Made by a program: the position numbers and the translations under genes
Shown here: positions 49,965 through 60,772 of the stretch, piece after piece
How positions within the stretch are numbered: position 1 is the first letter of the stretch
Layout: the number at the start of each line of letters is the position of its first letter
Assembly (NCBI GenBank): GCA_021774575.1
Contig: JAJFIX010000007.1
Coordinates: forward strand, 1-64,000
Direction: 5' to 3'
Length of the DNA stretch: 64,000 nucleotides
Source: Alphaproteobacteria bacterium
GTDB lineage: Bacteria; Pseudomonadota; Alphaproteobacteria; UBA6615
Notes under the pieces: generated by a model
Told to the model about the DNA's origin: nothing
Seen by the model: only the letters and a program-made list of their open reading frames with translations
Database searches by the model: none

Positions 49965-50153
49965 GAAAGCACCTGTTTCATTAATTCAATAATTTGCCAA
50001 TGATACAGAAGAAACTGGTCGCGGCGGTCCGGAAAAGTCCGAATACACTGGAAATTGAACGGATTTGACCGCGCGGTCGTTTTGAACGAATTGCACATGC
50101 CGCAAACCCGCCTTACCCTCCTTTGTCGAAACTATGCAAATAGAGGGTTCGTG

Positions 50154-51611
50154 ATGGCGCGTCGAATAGGGGTTTTTTCGGTATTAGCCGTATTAATCTT
50201 GGTGATCTCTTGGTTTGTGATCGGTGGCGATAAAGGCTTGCCGGAGCCCGATACCGTCGCCCAGCGTGATCAGTCAACCGACATATCGCCGACAGGCGCC
50301 GAGCTGGGTCAGCCGGACGAAGCATTGGTCGAGCACGGGCGCAATCTATTCACGAATGACTTCGCCACCCGCAATGCGGCCCTCGAAGCTATCCGGGCGC
50401 GGGGTAATATCGACATGGTTCCGGCCCTGGTCATGGCCATGCGCTACCGTGAAGATGCGCGTTACGAATATATATCTGTGCTTAAGGATTTGACCGGTGA
50501 CGATGCCGGAACCGACTGGCCAGCCTGGATGCTGTGGCAGGAATCGCATCCGGATGTCATGCCGTTTGCCGGTTTCGATCTCTTTAAGTCCGATATTTTG
50601 GCGACCGTAGATCCCGGTTATCGAGATTTTATTTATCAAGGTGTGGCCCATAATATCCGCCTCGAAGAGGCGGTCTGGGGTGGTGTGCGGGCCGGAAGCA
50701 ACGGGATACCGCCACTTAATTTTTCGGCCCAGATTTCGGCCGATGAGGCGACCTACCTCAATGACGATGATCTGGTTTTCGGCATTTCCATCGACGGCGA
50801 TACCAGGGCCTATCCGCTGCGGCTGATGAACTGGCACGAGATGTTCAATGATACCATCGGCGGTGTCGATCTCGCCCTGGCCTATTGTACTTTGTGCGGG
50901 TCGGGCATTCTTTATGAAACCAAGCTGGACGGGCGCGCTGAGCCGATGATTTTTGGCTCCTCGGGCTTGCTCTACCGGTCCAACAAGTTGATGTATGATT
51001 ACGCCACCAACTCCCTATGGAACCAGTTCACCGGGCGGCCGGTGGTTGGTGAATTAACGGGCTCGGGCATCGAGCTCAAAACGCGTCCTGTTCTCATCAC
51101 CAGTTGGGCGGCTTGGTCGGAAAAACATCCTGAAACCACGGTACTCTCTCTCGAAACAGGCCATACTCGCGACTATTCACCCGGCGCGATTTATGCGGAT
51201 TATTTCGACAGCCCCGACCTCATGTTCCCAGCCCAGGTCAAAGACGGCCCTCAAGAGGCCAAAGATTTCGTCTTCGGCATGACGGTGCCCGGCGCTGAAA
51301 AAGCCTGGCCGCTCACGCTGTTTGAAGGGGGGGCCGTGGTCAATGACACGGTCGGCGGCCATGACGTCGTGCTGATCGGCGACGCCGCAACCCGGACCGT
51401 GCGCGCCTATGAGGGCGGTGACCTCGATTTCGAGTTTTTCGAAGGAAACGATGAGCTTCTAGCAGCCGATAACGGCAGCCAATGGACCCTCACCGAGGAT
51501 CAGTTGACCGGCCCCGACGGCCAGGCCCTAATCCGCCAACCCGGCCATATAGCCTATTGGTTTGCCTGGACCAGCTTCCGGTCTCAAGCCCCGGTTTTTG
51601 AGGTCGAATAG
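50154..51611 (+). CDS. DUF3179-domain protein
   Basis: 485 residues from the ATG at 50154; the frame is open 33 codons further, but the signal anchor I-G-V-F-S-V-L-A-V-L-I-L starts right after this ATG. The DUF3179 region begins G-I-S-I-D-G-D-T-R-A-Y-P-L and contains A-Y-C-T-L-C-G-S-G, with a cysteine pair, then F-G-S-S-G-L-L-Y-R-S-N. The family is secreted, of unknown activity and common in marine bacteria. The Cys pair and conserved His (N-W-H-E) suggest redox or metal binding; that is inference. Confidence 0.85.
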   Translation: MARRIGVFSVLAVLILVISWFVIGGDKGLPEPDTVAQRDQSTDISPTGAELGQPDEALVEHGRNLFTNDFATRNAALEAIRARGNIDMVPALVMAMRYREDARYEYISVLKDLTGDDAGTDWPAWMLWQESHPDVMPFAGFDLFKSDILATVDPGYRDFIYQGVAHNIRLEEAVWGGVRAGSNGIPPLNFSAQISADEATYLNDDDLVFGISIDGDTRAYPLRLMNWHEMFNDTIGGVDLALAYCTLCGSGILYETKLDGRAEPMIFGSSGLLYRSNKLMYDYATNSLWNQFTGRPVVGELTGSGIELKTRPVLITSWAAWSEKHPETTVLSLETGHTRDYSPGAIYADYFDSPDLMFPAQVKDGPQEAKDFVFGMTVPGAEKAWPLTLFEGGAVVNDTVGGHDVVLIGDAATRTVRAYEGGDLDFEFFEGNDELLAADNGSQWTLTEDQLTGPDGQALIRQPGHIAYWFAWTSFRSQAPVFEVE

Positions 51612-51689: not shown

Positions 51690-51764
51690 GCCGTCGTAGC
51701 TCAGGGGTAGAGCACACCCTTGGTAAGGGTGGGGCCGGAGGTTCGATTCCTCCCGACGGCACCA
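51690..51764 (+). tRNA. tRNA-Thr(GGT)
   Basis: 75 nt. The acceptor stem GCCGTCG pairs with CGACGGC, the anticodon stem CACCC/GGGTG encloses TTGGTAA with anticodon GGT, the T-arm has GGTTCGATTCC, and CCA is encoded. It reads ACC/ACU codons. Its 3' end borders the AT-rich fic region. Confidence 0.96.
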
Positions 51765-52076: not shown

Positions 52077-53198
52077 ATGTCAGGTTTTTCCCCAACCCAG
52101 CCATTCAACGGTCTGCCAGCATTACCACCGAACACCGAAATCGAAACCCGAGCCATCTTAAAGAAATGCATCGAAGCACGTAGCGCACTTGCCGAACTGA
52201 AACAAGCAGGAGAACTGATTCCCAATCAGACAGTCATGATCAATACTATTCCATTGCGCGAAGCAATGGATAGCTCGGCAATCGAGAACATTGTCACCAC
52301 AGACGAAAAATTATTTAGATACGCAGCATTAGACGGCGGTGGTGCCGACCCTGATACAAAGGAAACCTTACGTTACCGAACAGCCCTATTCGAGGGGTAT
52401 AAAAGTCTCGGCCAACGCCCCCTTACAACAGCAACTGCTGTAAAAATATGCCAAACCATTCGGGGAGTAGATATCGGCATTAGAAACACTCAGGGCATCG
52501 CATTGAAAAATGCGGAAACTGAAAGAATCATATGCACGCCGCCCGAGGGAGGACTCATTCTTCAAGAAAAACTTAGCAATTGGGAATTTTTCATGCACGA
52601 ACAAACAGAGGCTGATCCTCTGGTGCGCATGGCAGTAGGACACTACCAGTTCGAGGCAATCCATCCATTTACCGACGGAAATGGACGCACAGGACGCGTT
52701 CTAAATATTCTTTATCTAATTAGTGAAAAACTTCTTAAAATCCCAGTCCTCTATCTCAGTCGTTACATAATAGAAAACAAGGATGCCTATTACCGCCTAT
52801 TAATGGAGGTAACCACGAAACACCAGTGGGAGCCCTGGATCCTATATATGTTGGATGCCGTTGAAAGTACGGCGAAGTGGACCACTGAAAAAATCCGCGC
52901 CATCCGGAATTTGATGGACCACACCCGTGATTATGTCAGCACTACGAGGCCCAGTGTTTACAGCCAGGAGATGATCGATCTCACATTTTTACAACCTTAT
53001 GCACGTATTGGCCATGTAATCGACGAAGGCATCGCAAAACGTGCCACAGCATCCAAATACCTCAAGGAACTAAACGCCATAAATGTACTTGATGAAATAC
53101 AGATTGGACGAGACAAATTATTTTTTCACCCAAAATTTCTGACATTGCTGATGGGTAAAGAAAACCATTTCTCTCATTACAAGCCCCAACAGCTATAA
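52077..53198 (+). CDS. fic: Fic family protein AMP-transferase (class II)
   Basis: 373 residues, close in length and sequence pattern to Shewanella SoFic (372). The core motif is H-P-F-T-D-G-N-G-R-T-G-R with catalytic His196. The N-terminal inhibitory helix has S-S-A-I-E-N with Glu70, the [S/T]xxxE[G/N] motif that blocks ATP binding, so it is class II, self-inhibited. A winged-helix-like C-terminal part follows after about residue 285. Fic proteins transfer AMP to Tyr/Thr/Ser hydroxyls. The gene is visibly more AT-rich than its neighbours and sits beside tRNA-Thr, so it is probably acquired. No separate antitoxin gene is seen. Target unknown. Confidence 0.92.
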   Translation: MSGFSPTQPFNGLPALPPNTEIETRAILKKCIEARSALAELKQAGELIPNQTVMINTIPLREAMDSSAIENIVTTDEKLFRYAALDGGGADPDTKETLRYRTALFEGYKSLGQRPLTTATAVKICQTIRGVDIGIRNTQGIALKNAETERIICTPPEGGLILQEKLSNWEFFMHEQTEADPLVRMAVGHYQFEAIHPFTDGNGRTGRVLNILYLISEKLLKIPVLYLSRYIIENKDAYYRLLMEVTTKHQWEPWILYMLDAVESTAKWTTEKIRAIRNLMDHTRDYVSTTRPSVYSQEMIDLTFLQPYARIGHVIDEGIAKRATASKYLKELNAINVLDEIQIGRDKLFFHPKFLTLLMGKENHFSHYKPQQL

Positions 53199-53271: not shown

Positions 53272-54306
53272 TTACTGATCGAGTGCCGTCAGTGCCAAAA
53301 TGCGATCCTCAGTGGTCGGATGGGTCAATGCGAACGCAACTTGGTCGGGGTCTTGGGCGCCAATACGTTGCCAGAATTCCGCTGCGCCGGAAATGTCGTG
53401 GCCAGCCTCAGTCAACATGGTGAGGGCGGCGGTATCGGCGTCGCTCTCAAAGGCTTGGGTAAACGACCATGTCGTGACCCCGTCCTTGATCTCGGAGACG
53501 GTGCCCCCGGCGTTAACTCGGCCGAGTATGGAGGCAAAGTCGCGGGCGAGGCCGCGACCGGCATCTCCTAGGGTGCTCGCGTTTTTTGAGTCCACATGTC
53601 CCAAGGCCCGGTGGGCCATCTCGTGGGCGAGCACTTGGACAAGTTCGTCGTCGCTTTGCGCAAAATTCATCATGCCGCTGGTGACGAAAATGTCTATGCC
53701 GTCGGTATAGGCGTTTATCGACGGGTCTTGGGCGACGTATCTTATTTGGGCCGCGCAAACGAGCTCGGGTGCGAGTGTGGCGGTTACGCTTTCGTCACCA
53801 CGTGCGACTGTTATGTCGACATTTCCACCGGTCTCGGCTGCTGCTGCCAATCTCCATTTAATGTCGTCCATGGCCCAGCGCCCCGACTGCACGTCGCGGC
53901 CGGCGACGGCCATTATTCTGTCGCCCATTTTCAGTCCGCCGGTGGCAGATGCGCCATCGGGGGCTTGGGCGATTATCTGTGGTTGCGGGCCGAGACCGGG
54001 GATCATGCGCTTTGCGGTCTCTTGGGAGCTACGGCTAAAGTTGATAATATTGGCCAAGGTGAAACCGTAGCCATATTCAGCACCGCCGCCGCAGGTTTCC
54101 CCATTGGATCGTCGTAACCCATAGGCGAGCGCTGTCAGTCGTTGGCTGTCTTCGAGATAGGTCGTGATATTCTGCTCATATTGATTTTGCCTCTCGGTCT
54201 CATCGAGTGTGGCGTCGAAATTTGTTCTCACGGCTGTTGGCGCCGCGCAGGCCGCCAGTCCAAAACCGAGCCCCAGTACCAATATCCCGCCGCTAATCCG
54301 TTTCAC
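53272..54306 (-). CDS. M48 family metalloprotease lipoprotein with PDZ-like domain
   Basis: 344 residues from the GTG at 54306, preceded by GAGGTGGA; the upstream frame to 54372 is less likely. A lipoprotein signal ends L-A-A-C with Cys20. A PDZ-like segment (G-G-L-K-M-G-D-R-I-M-A-V-A-G) lies at about residues 120-170. The zinc motif H-E-M-A-H has His228 and His232, with the third ligand probably in F-E-S-D-A-D. The combination of PDZ and M48 is less common than plain BepA/LoiP-type proteases. It probably acts in periplasmic protein quality control. Confidence 0.88.
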   Translation of the reverse strand: MKRISGGILVLGLGFGLAACAAPTAVRTNFDATLDETERQNQYEQNITTYLEDSQRLTALAYGLRRSNGETCGGGAEYGYGFTLANIINFSRSSQETAKRMIPGLGPQPQIIAQAPDGASATGGLKMGDRIMAVAGRDVQSGRWAMDDIKWRLAAAAETGGNVDITVARGDESVTATLAPELVCAAQIRYVAQDPSINAYTDGIDIFVTSGMMNFAQSDDELVQVLAHEMAHRALGHVDSKNASTLGDAGRGLARDFASILGRVNAGGTVSEIKDGVTTWSFTQAFESDADTAALTMLTEAGHDISGAAEFWQRIGAQDPDQVAFALTHPTTEDRILALTALDQ

Positions 54307-54494
54307 ATTCCACCTCGATATGTCATGACAGTGCACAAAGGCACGAAAATTAGATCGCACCTTATATAACATTGTCTATCCCGATGGCGGAGTCATGGGA
54401 TTACCGTTTCTGCATCCAGTTGAATAATAAGGATGTTTTATCGGCCAGGGATAGGGATTGCGGCGCGGATGTCATTTTGGAGTCGCGCCGTGAC

Positions 54495-55729: not shown

Positions 55730-56146
55730 CTATTCTTCTATTGCCTCCGGCGCCGCTGCGCTGCCCCGATCCATCAGCTGCCCGATGAGTGAGAGGGCGA
55801 TGCGAACAACCGTAATACCGAAGGCGACGATGGCGACCGCAAGGATGAGGGTGGTAAAGCTCGCCAAATCGGTAAAAAAGGCAAAACAGTAGCGGGCGAC
55901 AATCAGCCCGGCGATCAGAAATTGAACAAGATTGAGGACCGGTGCGAGCCGCGCGCTGCCAAGCCCGATGGTCTTCCAGATCACCAGCCCGATTGAGATC
56001 ACCACGAGGGCTAACAGAAAAATATCCAGCCGCCCCATCTCAACCCGGCTTGAGAGCAGGACAAAGGCAACCAGGAATAAGATATCGGCGGCCCCCACAA
56101 TACGGTCGGTGGGGTCGATCTTTGATAGGAATGCGACTTCTGCCAT
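55730..56146 (-). CDS. small four-helix membrane protein
   Basis: 138 residues with four hydrophobic helices (about 17-33, 42-60, 69-87, 95-117) and short charged ends. No family is recognised. It follows the PPC-repeat protein gene by 31 bases on the same strand, so it is probably cotranscribed and may anchor or accompany the secreted proteins; that is inference. Confidence 0.65.
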   Translation of the reverse strand: MAEVAFLSKIDPTDRIVGAADILFLVAFVLLSSRVEMGRLDIFLLALVVISIGLVIWKTIGLGSARLAPVLNLVQFLIAGLIVARYCFAFFTDLASFTTLILAVAIVAFGITVVRIALSLIGQLMDRGSAAAPEAIEE

Positions 56147-56177
56147 TTTCTTCCTCGTAAGTTCGTTACTGGAATAT

Positions 56178-57773
56178 CTATTTGGGGCCGAGAAGAACCG
56201 TTTTGAGCTGGTCTATCAGGGCGCGGCTGCCGAGGCTGGGTTGGCGACGCGCGGCCGTCATATTTCTCTCAAATGTTGCGGTCAGTCCGCCGACAAAAAG
56301 GGCGGAGCTCATGGGTTGGCGGGACGGGCGACCCTGATTGGCGTCAACCCAAACCGCGGTTAGAGCGGCGGCAAAGGTACCGGTGTCGAATTTGGCTTCG
56401 GGTGGCCGGTAAGACCGTTCAAAAATTTGGGTCAGCGTAACCATCATGAAATCGTCGGGGCCGAAGATCTCCCCACGGCTGGCTGCGATGATACGGCCGA
56501 AAGACGCGGCGAGTTCGCTTTCATCGGCGGGCACCACAACCACCTCGCCACCGCCCGCCTCGGCAATGTGATCAAGTTCGTCGAGGATTTCTGCCGATGA
56601 ATCGAGGCCGATCATAAAAAACGAATTGGCGTCGTCCGATGGGTCTGGGGTCGATGGCGCCGCGGGTAAAACAAAATGGGTCGCCAAGCGATAGGGGCGG
56701 CGGTCGCCGTCGTGATAGGGGCGCAAGCGCAAATAATATAGACCGGGCGTGAGCTCGGCCTCGGCCCGGTCGGCTTGGGCGACGGCAAAGGGAAGAGGGG
56801 CTGTGACGTCCTTGGCCGCGAACAATTCAAGATAGGGGTAATTGCCGTCGGCGCTCGGGTCGAAGGTCAATTCGAGACGACCGGCCTCGGTTAATTCCAT
56901 GGCCACCCAATCGACGTCGCCGCGAAACATGACGAAACTCAAGGCCTCGCCGGGCTCAATAACACGTGCCATTTCGGCCGTGTCGTTGGGTTCGAAGGGA
57001 TCGTCTTGGGCGCCAACGTTGAATTTGACCCAAGCATAGGACCTGGCCGGGTCGCTGAAGAGCCGCACATAATGGGTGCCCGGCAGCAGGTTGAGATTGC
57101 TCCGCTGGACATCTCCCCCGGAGGGGGACTTAGACCAGTAGAGCTCCAGCGGCACCGGGTCTTGCGCCCCGTCCAGAAGAATTTCAGCGCCATAATAGGG
57201 TGCGTTCGCATCTTCACGTTCGATGTCGACGGTCAGGACCGAAAGCGTATCGGCGGGGACGGCAAACCAATCCGCGTCGCCACCGGGGAAACTGCGGATG
57301 CGGGTTTCGCCAAACCCGGTACCAGCGGTTACGGGGCGATCATTGGGTTCTTCCAAATCGCTGTCGGTCTCGAAGTCCAGGAGTAACGTGTAGGTATCGG
57401 CCGCACCGGAGGCTGCGATCAGATAAATTCCGGCTTCGACACGGGCAACAAAGTTGCGATCTTCTCCCTCCCAAAGCTCTGTGCCGAGGGCAATTTCCGC
57501 CTCGGTCTCGCTATTGTGTAGCGTGAACGAAAGATGGCTCGCATTGGTGCCCGCACCGATTTGAGACAGGGTGAGCAGACCGTCGGCAGGGACCAGAAAG
57601 CGCAGCCAGTCAATATCGTCCTCGGTTGAAATATTGACCTCTGATTGCCAATGCAAGGGAACGATGTCGGCAAATCGTGGATCGTCGTTGAGTTCGTCGG
57701 CCCACGAAAAAGTGGTGCCGACCATCGCGATCAGCGGCCCGGCAAGAGCTGCCATGAGGACGCGGCCGGTCAT
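56178..57773 (-). CDS. secreted protein with three PPC-like repeats
   Basis: 531 residues from the ATG that overlaps the vWA-gene stop in ATGA; the longer frame inside that gene is excluded. A signal peptide ends near S-W-A-D. Three repeats of the pre-peptidase C-terminal type follow, each with an acidic turn and a D-W/D-D-W core: D-D-I-D-W-L-R-F, E-P-N-D...G-D-A-D-W-F-A-V, and E-P-N-D...G-D-V-D-W-V-A-M. No protease domain is present. A C-terminal helical region of about 170 residues is unrecognised. Its coupling to the vWA gene implies a shared complex. Confidence 0.75.
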   Translation of the reverse strand: MTGRVLMAALAGPLIAMVGTTFSWADELNDDPRFADIVPLHWQSEVNISTEDDIDWLRFLVPADGLLTLSQIGAGTNASHLSFTLHNSETEAEIALGTELWEGEDRNFVARVEAGIYLIAASGAADTYTLLLDFETDSDLEEPNDRPVTAGTGFGETRIRSFPGGDADWFAVPADTLSVLTVDIEREDANAPYYGAEILLDGAQDPVPLELYWSKSPSGGDVQRSNLNLLPGTHYVRLFSDPARSYAWVKFNVGAQDDPFEPNDTAEMARVIEPGEALSFVMFRGDVDWVAMELTEAGRLELTFDPSADGNYPYLELFAAKDVTAPLPFAVAQADRAEAELTPGLYYLRLRPYHDGDRRPYRLATHFVLPAAPSTPDPSDDANSFFMIGLDSSAEILDELDHIAEAGGGEVVVVPADESELAASFGRIIAASRGEIFGPDDFMMVTLTQIFERSYRPPEAKFDTGTFAAALTAVWVDANQGRPSRQPMSSALFVGGLTATFERNMTAARRQPSLGSRALIDQLKTVLLGPK

Positions 57774-60772
57774 CGGACTATTCCTTCGACCCGGCCTTGG
57801 ATATCGGCGTCGGCAGTGCTTCTGTCGGTACCCGGCGGTGATCCCCAGCGCTGGCGAATGCCATCCATTGCCACCTGACCTTGGCGGCATTGCGCCGCTG
57901 CCCGTGTCTGGGCGGAAAAGGGTTGGGAGTTTACGCCCCAGGAGGCGTTGTTGGCGCCCGCAACTGCGCCGTAATAGATATAAAATTTCTGTTGGGTGAC
58001 CAGGACGTTGCAGGCCCCATCGCGTCCCCATTCGTGAAAGCGGTTTTTGGTCAGAACGATTGTCGGCAGGGTCATCGACCCCCGTTGGCTGACCTCCCAG
58101 GTGATCCGGTCGGCGGGCTGCACGGTGACAGGGGGCTCTTCCTCGGCGGCGAGATCATCTTCCGGGACTTCCGTTTCAGTTGTGGGTTCGTCGTCTTCGT
58201 CTTCGGCTTGTGGGTCGGGACTTGAACTGCCGATATCGCCGCGCAAGGCAACTCGGGACCGGTAGCGCCCAGCCGCCGCTGCTGGGTCGCCGTCACAGCT
58301 CTCTTCGCCGTCAGTCAAAACCACCAGCGTCTTGCGGTCGTAACGGCCTTCGGCGATCAGATAATCTCCGCCGGACGCGATCGCAGCGGCGAGGGGGGTT
58401 CCGTCTCGGGGTTCGATCCCGCGCAAGACGGTGAGAAAATTTTGCTTGTCGCGGGTGAAAGGCAGTGCCAGCTGGATATTGCCGCAATCGAAGAAGGCCC
58501 AAAGGGCAACCTCGTCGCCGGGCTCCATCGCTTGGACGAAGGCGTTGGCCGACTGCTTGACCCGCACCATGCGGCTATTATCCCCCATCGAGCCCGAGGC
58601 ATCGACGACGAAGCTATAAGAGGTGCCATTTTCGGATTTGAAATTGAGCAGGTGCCAGCGATCCTGGCCGCCGCGCCCGGACCCGGCAAAGGATTTTGTT
58701 TCCTCCCAATATGTCCAATTCCCATCGGTGAGAGAAGCCGAAGTCCCAGGGTTTGCATCAAGGGCCTTGCCGGCAAAATCAGTGCCCGAGACTTGGACGA
58801 CAATATCGTCTTGGTCGGCAAAGGCCTCCAGCGGCCCGGTGTCGAAACTGCCGCTCCAACTCGTCCCGCTTCCCGAAACCTGCACCAACACCGCCCCGTC
58901 ATCGGGGCCGGGCAAAGGCAAGCCGACGCCATCGCCGGGGCCCGGCGGGCGGGCGATCGTACCGTTACCAATGACCGTCAGTGGTGCTTGGTTGAGTGCG
59001 GCAGAAAATGTCAGTTCGATCGATGCCTGTTCGCCGTCGCCGATCTCGAGTTGTTCGTTGGTTGTGATATCCAGTCGTCGGGTTGGCGCCAGGGCCAGCT
59101 CATTTTGCAGCGCGGCAATGCGTTGGCGGCGCGTCTCGATTTCGGCCTCCAGCATGTCGCGTTCTTCGCGGGCAATCCTGATCAGCCCGTTATGGGCGTT
59201 TACATAGGCGTCAAGATAGGCCATCCCGGCATTCGCCAAGGCAAGAGCGATCATTGTATCGGGTGTCCAGATTTTCCCAATCAAGACGGTGCGCCAAAAT
59301 CCGGAATCTACGTCGGCGATATCGTTCTGCTGCTCCTGATAGAGCCGGTTGATCTCGTGCAGCATCACCGTTTCGAAGCTCTTGCGCGAGGCCCGCCGCC
59401 CAGCGAGATCCGAGCGTGTTTCATCATAATCGGCGATTGAACGGCCTGCCTGATCAATGGCGCCGGTAAAGCGTGCCATATCAACCTGGTTGATTTGATA
59501 ACGGCTTTGGTCAAATGCCTTGCTCAATTTATTTGGCACGTCGTAGATCGTGTAGATCGCCGCGCCGCGAACGATCCAGGGAGAGTTCAGGGCGATTTGG
59601 CGTGCCTGAATGGCGATCATGTTGCGCGCGACCTGGCCGCGCAGCCATTGGGCGCGGGCCATATGGGTTGTTGCCCGGACAATAGCGTTTTGCACCAGCA
59701 CTTCTCCGGCAACCCCCGATGCGGTGGCGGCGGCGGTTCCCTCGACGACCGCAAGTCGGACAGCCGTGGCGACTTGGGCGACGCCGGTCACCGCCAGAAT
59801 GAGATTGCCCCAACGGTAGAGCGCGACCGATGTCGCGTTGACCATTTCGTTATGTTCGATCTCGTCGATCAGCGGGCGCTGCAGGGATAGAGACGTCCTT
59901 GCCTCGCGCGAATAACGGGCGATATCGGCATTGGTCGTTGCGACATGGGGTTCGAGGTCGGCGATTTGGCGCTGTAATTCGGTAATCATCTCCCGGAGCG
60001 CCCGCTGAATGCTCAAGTCTTCGGACCATGCAGCCTGATAGATTTTCTGCCCGTTCTGGGTGACGGTAATCGTTTCGAGATAGGGCGGGTGTTCGCTGAT
60101 CGTTGCCTCGGCGAGGCGCGCCCGTTCGGCTTCGGCGGTCTCGCGCGCCGTGGCAAGAGCAGCGTTGGCAGTTTCCAAATCCTGCTCGGCCCGGTCGATC
60201 TGAGTGCGTAGCTGGTCTCGTGCTTGGGACGCGCTTCGCCAAACTTGCCTGGCGGCAGCGACATCGCGCATATGGGATGAAGATTGTCTGCCATAGCGCG
60301 CGGTGTCGCGGTTGAGCACTTCGCGGTAGGTGCGAATGGTGAGCTCCATGTCGGCTCGGCCGGCATCATTGGGCGGCAGGGCGGCAAGTTGGCGCTGCAG
60401 GGCCGAAATTTCCTCGGCTTGCTGGGTGAGCAGGGCCAGGGCCGACGAGAGCCCATCGCTTCGGCCTGAGGCGATATCAAGATCGACCTTGGCGACAAAT
60501 ACCGCCGATTCCGCGGCGCCGAGAGTTGCCTGCAATTCGTCACGATGGGCCTTGGCGGCATTGACCTGGGCCAGGGCTGCCTCGGCCTGTTGATCGGCGG
60601 CAGCGACGGTTGCCAGTAGCACGTCAACGTTGCCGCCGTTTTGCGAATGCAGGGGGGCGACGAAAATTATCACGCCAGCCAAGGTGGCCGAAATCAGCCT
60701 TATCAAACGGCGTCGACGATTGCCGAGTGTATCAATATATTGCGGTGTAGACTCAGCATGGCGATGCAGCAT
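57770..60772 (-). CDS. coiled-coil and von Willebrand A domain protein
   Basis: 1000 residues with GAGGT seven bases before the ATG. A basic start and one hydrophobic segment (about 25-43) give a signal anchor. Long alpha-helical coiled coil covers about 50-290 and again about 440-580. The vWA domain begins near residue 720: the metal site D-A-S-G-S has Asp724, Ser726 and Ser728, and V-V-L-T-D-G-E-E provides the later ligands. The C-terminus has Cys-containing sequence after an acidic stretch. vWA domains bind partners through Mg2+. It starts the vWA-PPC-membrane run. Function unknown. Confidence 0.75.
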   Translation of the reverse strand: MLHRHAESTPQYIDTLGNRRRRLIRLISATLAGVIIFVAPLHSQNGGNVDVLLATVAAADQQAEAALAQVNAAKAHRDELQATLGAAESAVFVAKVDLDIASGRSDGLSSALALLTQQAEEISALQRQLAALPPNDAGRADMELTIRTYREVLNRDTARYGRQSSSHMRDVAAARQVWRSASQARDQLRTQIDRAEQDLETANAALATARETAEAERARLAEATISEHPPYLETITVTQNGQKIYQAAWSEDLSIQRALREMITELQRQIADLEPHVATTNADIARYSREARTSLSLQRPLIDEIEHNEMVNATSVALYRWGNLILAVTGVAQVATAVRLAVVEGTAAATASGVAGEVLVQNAIVRATTHMARAQWLRGQVARNMIAIQARQIALNSPWIVRGAAIYTIYDVPNKLSKAFDQSRYQINQVDMARFTGAIDQAGRSIADYDETRSDLAGRRASRKSFETVMLHEINRLYQEQQNDIADVDSGFWRTVLIGKIWTPDTMIALALANAGMAYLDAYVNAHNGLIRIAREERDMLEAEIETRRQRIAALQNELALAPTRRLDITTNEQLEIGDGEQASIELTFSAALNQAPLTVIGNGTIARPPGPGDGVGLPLPGPDDGAVLVQVSGSGTSWSGSFDTGPLEAFADQDDIVVQVSGTDFAGKALDANPGTSASLTDGNWTYWEETKSFAGSGRGGQDRWHLLNFKSENGTSYSFVVDASGSMGDNSRMVRVKQSANAFVQAMEPGDEVALWAFFDCGNIQLALPFTRDKQNFLTVLRGIEPRDGTPLAAAIASGGDYLIAEGRYDRKTLVVLTDGEESCDGDPAAAAGRYRSRVALRGDIGSSSPDPQAEDEDDEPTTETEVPEDDLAAEEEPPVTVQPADRITWEVSQRGSMTLPTIVLTKNRFHEWGRDGACNVLVTQQKFYIYYGAVAGANNASWGVNSQPFSAQTRAAAQCRQGQVAMDGIRQRWGSPPGTDRSTADADIQGRVEGIVR

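Follow-up and report, generated by a model that had tools for sequence, protein, structure and literature searches.

The window analysed here is a 64,000-nucleotide stretch of an alphaproteobacterial contig, in which three minus-strand genes that follow one another encode the proteins P0001, P0002 and P0003 (Table 1). On one side of them lies a gene for an FMN oxidoreductase and on the other a gene for a class V aminotransferase. A preliminary description of this DNA had proposed a run of three genes at this place, with the second translationally coupled to the first and the third encoding a four-helix membrane protein. All three same-strand open reading frames were present, the first two overlap in an ATGA, and P0003 contains four hydrophobic segments, in agreement with that description.

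Table 1. Genes and protein features of the three-gene unit (window coordinates; aa, amino acid residues of the protein named).
Feature	Coordinates	Strand	Protein	Remarks
Gene 1	57770..60772	-	P0001	1000 aa; signal-like segment, long helical region, β-rich domain, N-terminal two-thirds of vWA, acidic linker, C-terminal domain
N-terminal hydrophobic segment, aa 23-43	60644..60706	-	P0001	probable signal peptide
Helical/coiled-coil region, aa 46-565	59078..60637	-	P0001	conserved in Ponticaulis and Robiginitomaculum relatives, 25-30% identity
β-rich domain, aa 578-705	58658..59041	-	P0001	precedes vWA; common to the variant with another N terminus
vWA N-terminal part, aa 716-842	58247..58627	-	P0001	β1 up to the helix before β5
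MIDAS D724-x-S726-x-S728	58589..58603	-	P0001	
MIDAS T792	58397..58399	-	P0001	
MIDAS D821	58310..58312	-	P0001	
Acidic linker, aa 850-885	58118..58225	-	P0001	low model confidence
C-terminal domain, aa 887-1000	57773..58114	-	P0001	five strands, two helices; pLDDT about 72-91
ATGA stop/start overlap	57770..57773	-	P0001/P0002	translational coupling; P0002 counted from its ATG
Gene 2	56178..57773	-	P0002	531 aa; signal-like segment, PPC-like β domains, vWA C-terminal third, tail
PPC-like β-sandwich repeats, aa 27-375	56649..57695	-	P0002	
vWA C-terminal third, aa 381-434	56472..56633	-	P0002	β5-α6-β6-α7, SFFMIGL...IIAAS
Tail, aa 435-531	56181..56471	-	P0002	partly conserved; L036 counterpart modelled mostly helical, low pLDDT
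Gene 3	55730..56146	-	P0003	138 aa; four hydrophobic segments

A Pfam scan of the nine flanking genes gave matches to TauE, DUF3179, Fic, M48 peptidase, aminotransferase, Oxidored_FMN, RidA-like and amidohydrolase families, with one gene giving no match, and no AAA+ (MoxR) or secretion family was found among the nine. The claimed absence of MoxR and secretion genes was right for these genes, but the claimed absence of a protease was not, as an M48 peptidase gene (53272-54372, minus strand; Pfam PF01435, E 2.5e-18, with a weak PDZ match) lies one gene away from the unit. A tblastn search of the loci with related units did not detect this peptidase. A SoFic-like Fic/DOC protein is encoded at 52077-53198 (plus strand), near a tRNA-Thr gene (51690-51764), and a DUF3179 protein at 50055-51611 (plus strand). 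Comparison of P0001 with the PADLOC anti-phage defence models gave a weak and partial match to TerY (E 0.0026), as any vWA protein would give.

P0001 scored above the curated Pfam cut-offs for VWA_2 (59.9 bits, cut-off 27) and VWA (39.3 bits, cut-off 23.8), and the MIDAS columns (D724, S726, S728, T792 and D821) were invariant across a 12-sequence alignment, which upholds the intact metal site of the preliminary description. The vWA domain as a whole had also been taken to be intact, and this was not borne out: the Pfam VWA match begins at position 4 of the 174-position profile and goes no further than position 130, everything from strand β5 to helix α7 is absent, and the chain continues as a helix, the acidic linker and the C-terminal domain. 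P0001 does not hold a complete α/β vWA fold in one polypeptide, and the remainder was found in P0002. As for the "anchored coiled-coil protein" of that description, the 1000-residue length and the helical region stand, whereas the anchoring is uncertain because the N-terminal stretch resembles a signal peptide in relatives. A short motif similar to I.V...G..IY.A.W is common to P0001 (aa 233-249) and to P0004, a protein of a variant unit described below (aa ~958-974); it precedes the β-rich/vWA part at a distance that differs between the variants.

Near the C terminus of P0002, the sequence SFFMIGLDSSAEILDELDHIAEAGGGEVVVVPADESELAASFGRIIAAS reads by eye as a typical end of a vWA fold. A Pfam scan of P0002 itself gave nothing at E<=10, and the PPC (PF04151) cut-off was not reached, whereas the relatives to which it is homologous by alignment had PPC matches with E values of 1e-26 (L045), 2e-23 (L040) and 3.5e-4 (L034), the first two above the cut-off. 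The best Foldseek match of a model from one relative (L036, see below) was the collagen-binding domain 5iku (E 1.8e-8). The PPC-like repeats assigned to P0002 in the preliminary description are therefore supported through its relatives rather than by P0002 itself. When seven partner proteins were scanned, six passed the hydropathy threshold for an N-terminal signal-like segment, the L033 partner being the one that failed.

A gene of genome G026 encodes a distant relative of residues 626-973 of P0001 (29% identity over 375 columns) and is likewise followed by an ATGA-coupled PPC-type gene; a profile made from these two sequences (A1) led to further loci. Co-occurrence of the genes, which had been suggested as a check in the preliminary description, was found: the vWA-partner pair is present at 14 loci besides the window, and the entire three-gene unit is kept in order in four other genomes, namely Ponticaulis koreensis (L034), UBA1849 (L035), a Robiginitomaculum MAG (L036) and a Ponticaulis MAG (L037). 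In each of these four, a P0003 homologue is the third gene (phmmer E 7e-17 in L036 and 4e-7 in L034).

A variant with another large N terminus was found at L032/L039, L038, L041-L044 and L046; its partner ends in a transmembrane helix, and in L041, L042 and others the vWA third passes at α7 directly into this helix. In P0004, which belongs to this variant, the large N terminus carries an HFLQD...GH motif that by eye looks zinc-phospholipase-like; Pfam and NCBIfam searches of P0004 returned vWA models only, and a PDB sequence search gave one match (E 0.33). At L033:9193-12561 (minus strand; genome G102), an N terminus resembling the MXAN_6640 metalloprotease (NF045524, E 8e-28, 97.9 bits, below the cut-off of 140) is fused to the N-terminal part of a split vWA, with the partner gene adjoining. 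Two loci are clean splits, L040 of Jannaschia seohaensis and L045 of a Trueperaceae MAG: here gene 1 stops right after the DGxExC helix, past the MIDAS aspartate, with no counterpart of the P0001 C-terminal domain, and the second gene encodes a signal-like segment, then the missing vWA third and then the PPC repeats. A 4-base gene overlap occurs in 9 of the 15 pairs (the window and 8 of the 14 related loci), and the remaining pairs are +1 to +28 bp apart. In a tree of the vWA N-terminal parts, the split label needs 2 changes, compared to a mean of 12.8 for shuffled labels; the split may have had a single origin (40% of bootstrap trees).

The unit is rare. A search of 385 genomes of the class with the A1 profile gave a convincing match in 3 besides the window (G026, G259 and G102); single-sequence searches with P0002 and P0003 in 60 genomes (the window genome and 59 relatives, 23 of the same family) found none besides the window, and a scan of genome contigs with P0001 alone found no relatives. 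Viral contigs scanned with the A1 profile and with a profile of the clean-split thirds (A4) gave no match, on plasmids P0001 had only generic vWA matches and the L040 partner had none, and A4 at E<=1e-10 had no match in a phylum sample of 299 genomes, which shows little. No natural one-chain vWA-PPC fusion was seen among the A4 matches; both of the two proteins matched have an intact vWA domain, and neither shows an evident PPC region.

The division of the vWA domain was evaluated with a reference HMM made from 14 intact vWA domains and 196 columns long. The matches of all 15 vWA proteins were confined to columns ~2-5 to 125-133, and all 15 adjacent partners matched best from columns 129-143 on, to ~190; between 0 and 5 of 200 shuffled versions of each partner equalled the observed score. 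When the 626 open reading frames of the loci were searched, the best matches confined to the C-terminal third were all these partners. When the halves were joined in silico, each of the 10 pairs tested gained between 10 and 43 bits, and none of 200 shuffled thirds reached any of these gains. For the window, the joined halves rose from 86.3 to 103.6 bits with this HMM, and with the curated Pfam VWA model from 40.3 bits (4-129/174) for P0001 alone to 46.0 bits (4-168/174); the corresponding Pfam increase for the Trueperaceae pair was from 36.6 to 57.7 bits. The C-terminal third of the window by itself is a weak match (E 0.012, 5.6-6.3 bits). In the opposite direction, the profile of the two clean-split thirds (L040 and L045) matched intact vWA proteins with E values of 8e-10 and 8e-9. 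Whole partner alignments compared by hhalign gave E values of 5e-9 (clean splits), 1e-3 (the type with the other N terminus), 0.01 (Ponticaulis type) and 0.0095 (L033), the second and third being weak, and all four groups matched the same template region. The alignments used in this analysis contained only 10-12 sequences. The loci are also related to each other, so the tests do not amount to independent evidence.

Since P0001 and P0002 of the window are encoded in different frames, the homologous pair of the Robiginitomaculum MAG (L036), in which both genes are in one frame, was used for a joint AlphaFold2 model. The intervening TAG was read as Ser to give a single 1027-residue chain of the vWA gene C terminus and the partner; the read-through is a modelling device and not a claim that read-through occurs. 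The model was obtained from 10 sequences (mean pLDDT 60, pTM 0.33, no inter-domain error estimate), and the partner contributes a strand (877-883), a helix (888-900), a strand (904-907) and a helix (912-926). VIA-align found a complete vWA fold over residues 137-930 (6tnj, Z 22.4, 178 residues aligned, rmsd 2.4), and 171 of the 189 residues of 9c4f_I aligned at 2.0 Å. The vWA N-terminal part has only about 135 residues, and therefore the partner third must contribute to the 178 aligned residues in this model. Residues 578-1000 of P0001 modelled alone (pLDDT 70) gave a best Z of 17.3, with 134 residues aligned over 138-274, and the fold was incomplete.

An alternative is that P0001 completes its vWA fold in cis, with the C-terminal domain of the same chain, that the P0002 segment is decayed or an unrelated α/β element, and that the separate PPC protein is a ligand, as the preliminary description held. 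The C-terminal domain, of ~110 residues, is conserved among relatives in the 12-sequence alignment, and in some VIA alignments of the isolated P0001 model a strand of this domain joins the fold, extending the range to about residue 348, which keeps cis completion alive at a low level. However, the chains of L040 and L045 end at the break without such a domain, the fold in the L036 model is completed by the partner third although both were available, and all partner matches to the intact-vWA HMM sit on the missing third; we regard cis completion as quite unlikely. That the break is a frameshift, a sequencing artefact or a pseudogene of one vWA-PPC gene was rejected as highly improbable. Draft genomes commonly contain decay or assembly errors, and several of the relatives are MAGs, but the same breakpoint is present in 15 pairs, including those of the isolates Ponticaulis koreensis DSM 19734, Jannaschia seohaensis DSM 25227 and Hyphobacterium indicum 2ED5. 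Furthermore, the second genes open with their own hydrophobic, signal-like segment, and in most loci the C-terminal third follows the PPC region, an order that a single frameshift cannot yield.

A different question is what a split vWA complex would do. Instead of acting as an adhesin or sensor, it could be a structural or assembly factor (for example, an envelope scaffold or a chaperone for gene 3), with a MIDAS that is only structural. The N-terminal modules vary widely, from a coiled coil to the large N terminus of the other type and the MXAN_6640 metalloprotease-like domain, and because of this diversity the vWA-PPC core may serve as a docking module of a general kind. The invariance of the MIDAS columns argues against a structural role, and the collagen-binding-domain match of the L036 model fits binding roles; we consider the structural role somewhat unlikely.

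The joined halves resemble the vWA family (PF00092/PF13519: integrin alpha-I, ANTXR2, Mfa5 and BatB) in fold (Z about 19-22) and in the DxSxS-T-D MIDAS, and differ in that the fold is divided just before β5 between two separately secreted proteins; to our knowledge, the fold of known family members is always in one chain. The MoxR/vWA systems (NorQD, RavA-ViaA and Bat) are similar in having a bacterial vWA protein, and BatB is among the structural matches, whereas the window unit has no AAA+ gene in its nine flanking genes, would be secreted and has a PPC partner. Alphaproteobacteria also have secreted DxSxSMW vWA proteins made as a single chain (for example, L012, L013 and L033:6022-7494), which were among the one-chain sequences compared here. 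These have the DGxExC motif in common with the unit, but they hold the whole domain, including a VHVVGF-type C-terminal third, and P0001 does not. The collagen-binding (PPC) domains of clostridial collagenases resemble the L036 model and the PPC matches of the relatives; here, there is no collagenase catalytic domain, and the repeats accompany a vWA third. In PilY1/PilB-type proteins, envelope MIDAS vWA domains function in adhesion and surface sensing (PMC8806160, PMC8179133). PilB structures (7ba2/7b7p) were among the VIA matches, and the pilin part of these adhesins was not seen here. We know of no split in a vWA domain of this type. No description of a split vWA, or of pre-peptidase C-terminal and VWA domains together, was found in the open-access papers searched, and no described system that matches the run was found in them either.

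We think it likely that P0001 and P0002 are the two components of a split vWA complex in the cell envelope, in which the halves dock to make one vWA domain. The split, the conserved breakpoint, the gene coupling, the MIDAS conservation and the modelled joint fold of a homologous pair are supported in silico. What happens in the cell (reassembly, binding of metal, location, switching, ligand and biological role) we infer as follows. Gene 1 would export the vWA core with the MIDAS metal ligands but minus β5-α6-β6-α7, and gene 2, coupled in translation, would be exported separately, carrying the missing third behind PPC/collagen-binding-like domains. The two proteins would dock outside the cytoplasm to give one complete vWA Rossmann fold, and P0003, a candidate anchor, probably fixes this complex to the inner membrane. 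The preliminary description had proposed that the vWA domain binds the PPC protein outside the membrane; a physical association is supported, but by domain completion (β5 to α7 on the partner) rather than by an intact vWA domain with a PPC ligand. In integrin vWA domains, ligand binding is accompanied by a 10 Å shift of α7 (PMC5054827). Because α7 is on the partner here, ligand binding would depend on the partner; without a bound partner there would be no metal-dependent binding, and forces on the partner or changes in its conformation could tune such binding.

More tentatively, the unit may represent an undescribed class of obligate two-protein vWA switch, with the MIDAS half and the α7 half encoded by coupled genes and exported apart, in which docking of the partner licenses binding and tension on the partner may set it. 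Such a class would be distributed in Alphaproteobacteria and one Trueperaceae genome, with interchangeable N-terminal modules. If this is true, annotation pipelines label one half "a vWA protein" and the other half unknown or a PPC protein. The vWA/I domains are textbook examples of allosteric, metal-dependent adhesion, in which movement of α7 is coupled to the metal site, and the presence of α7 on a second protein would provide a ready-made test of α7-metal coupling in a natural split-protein pair.
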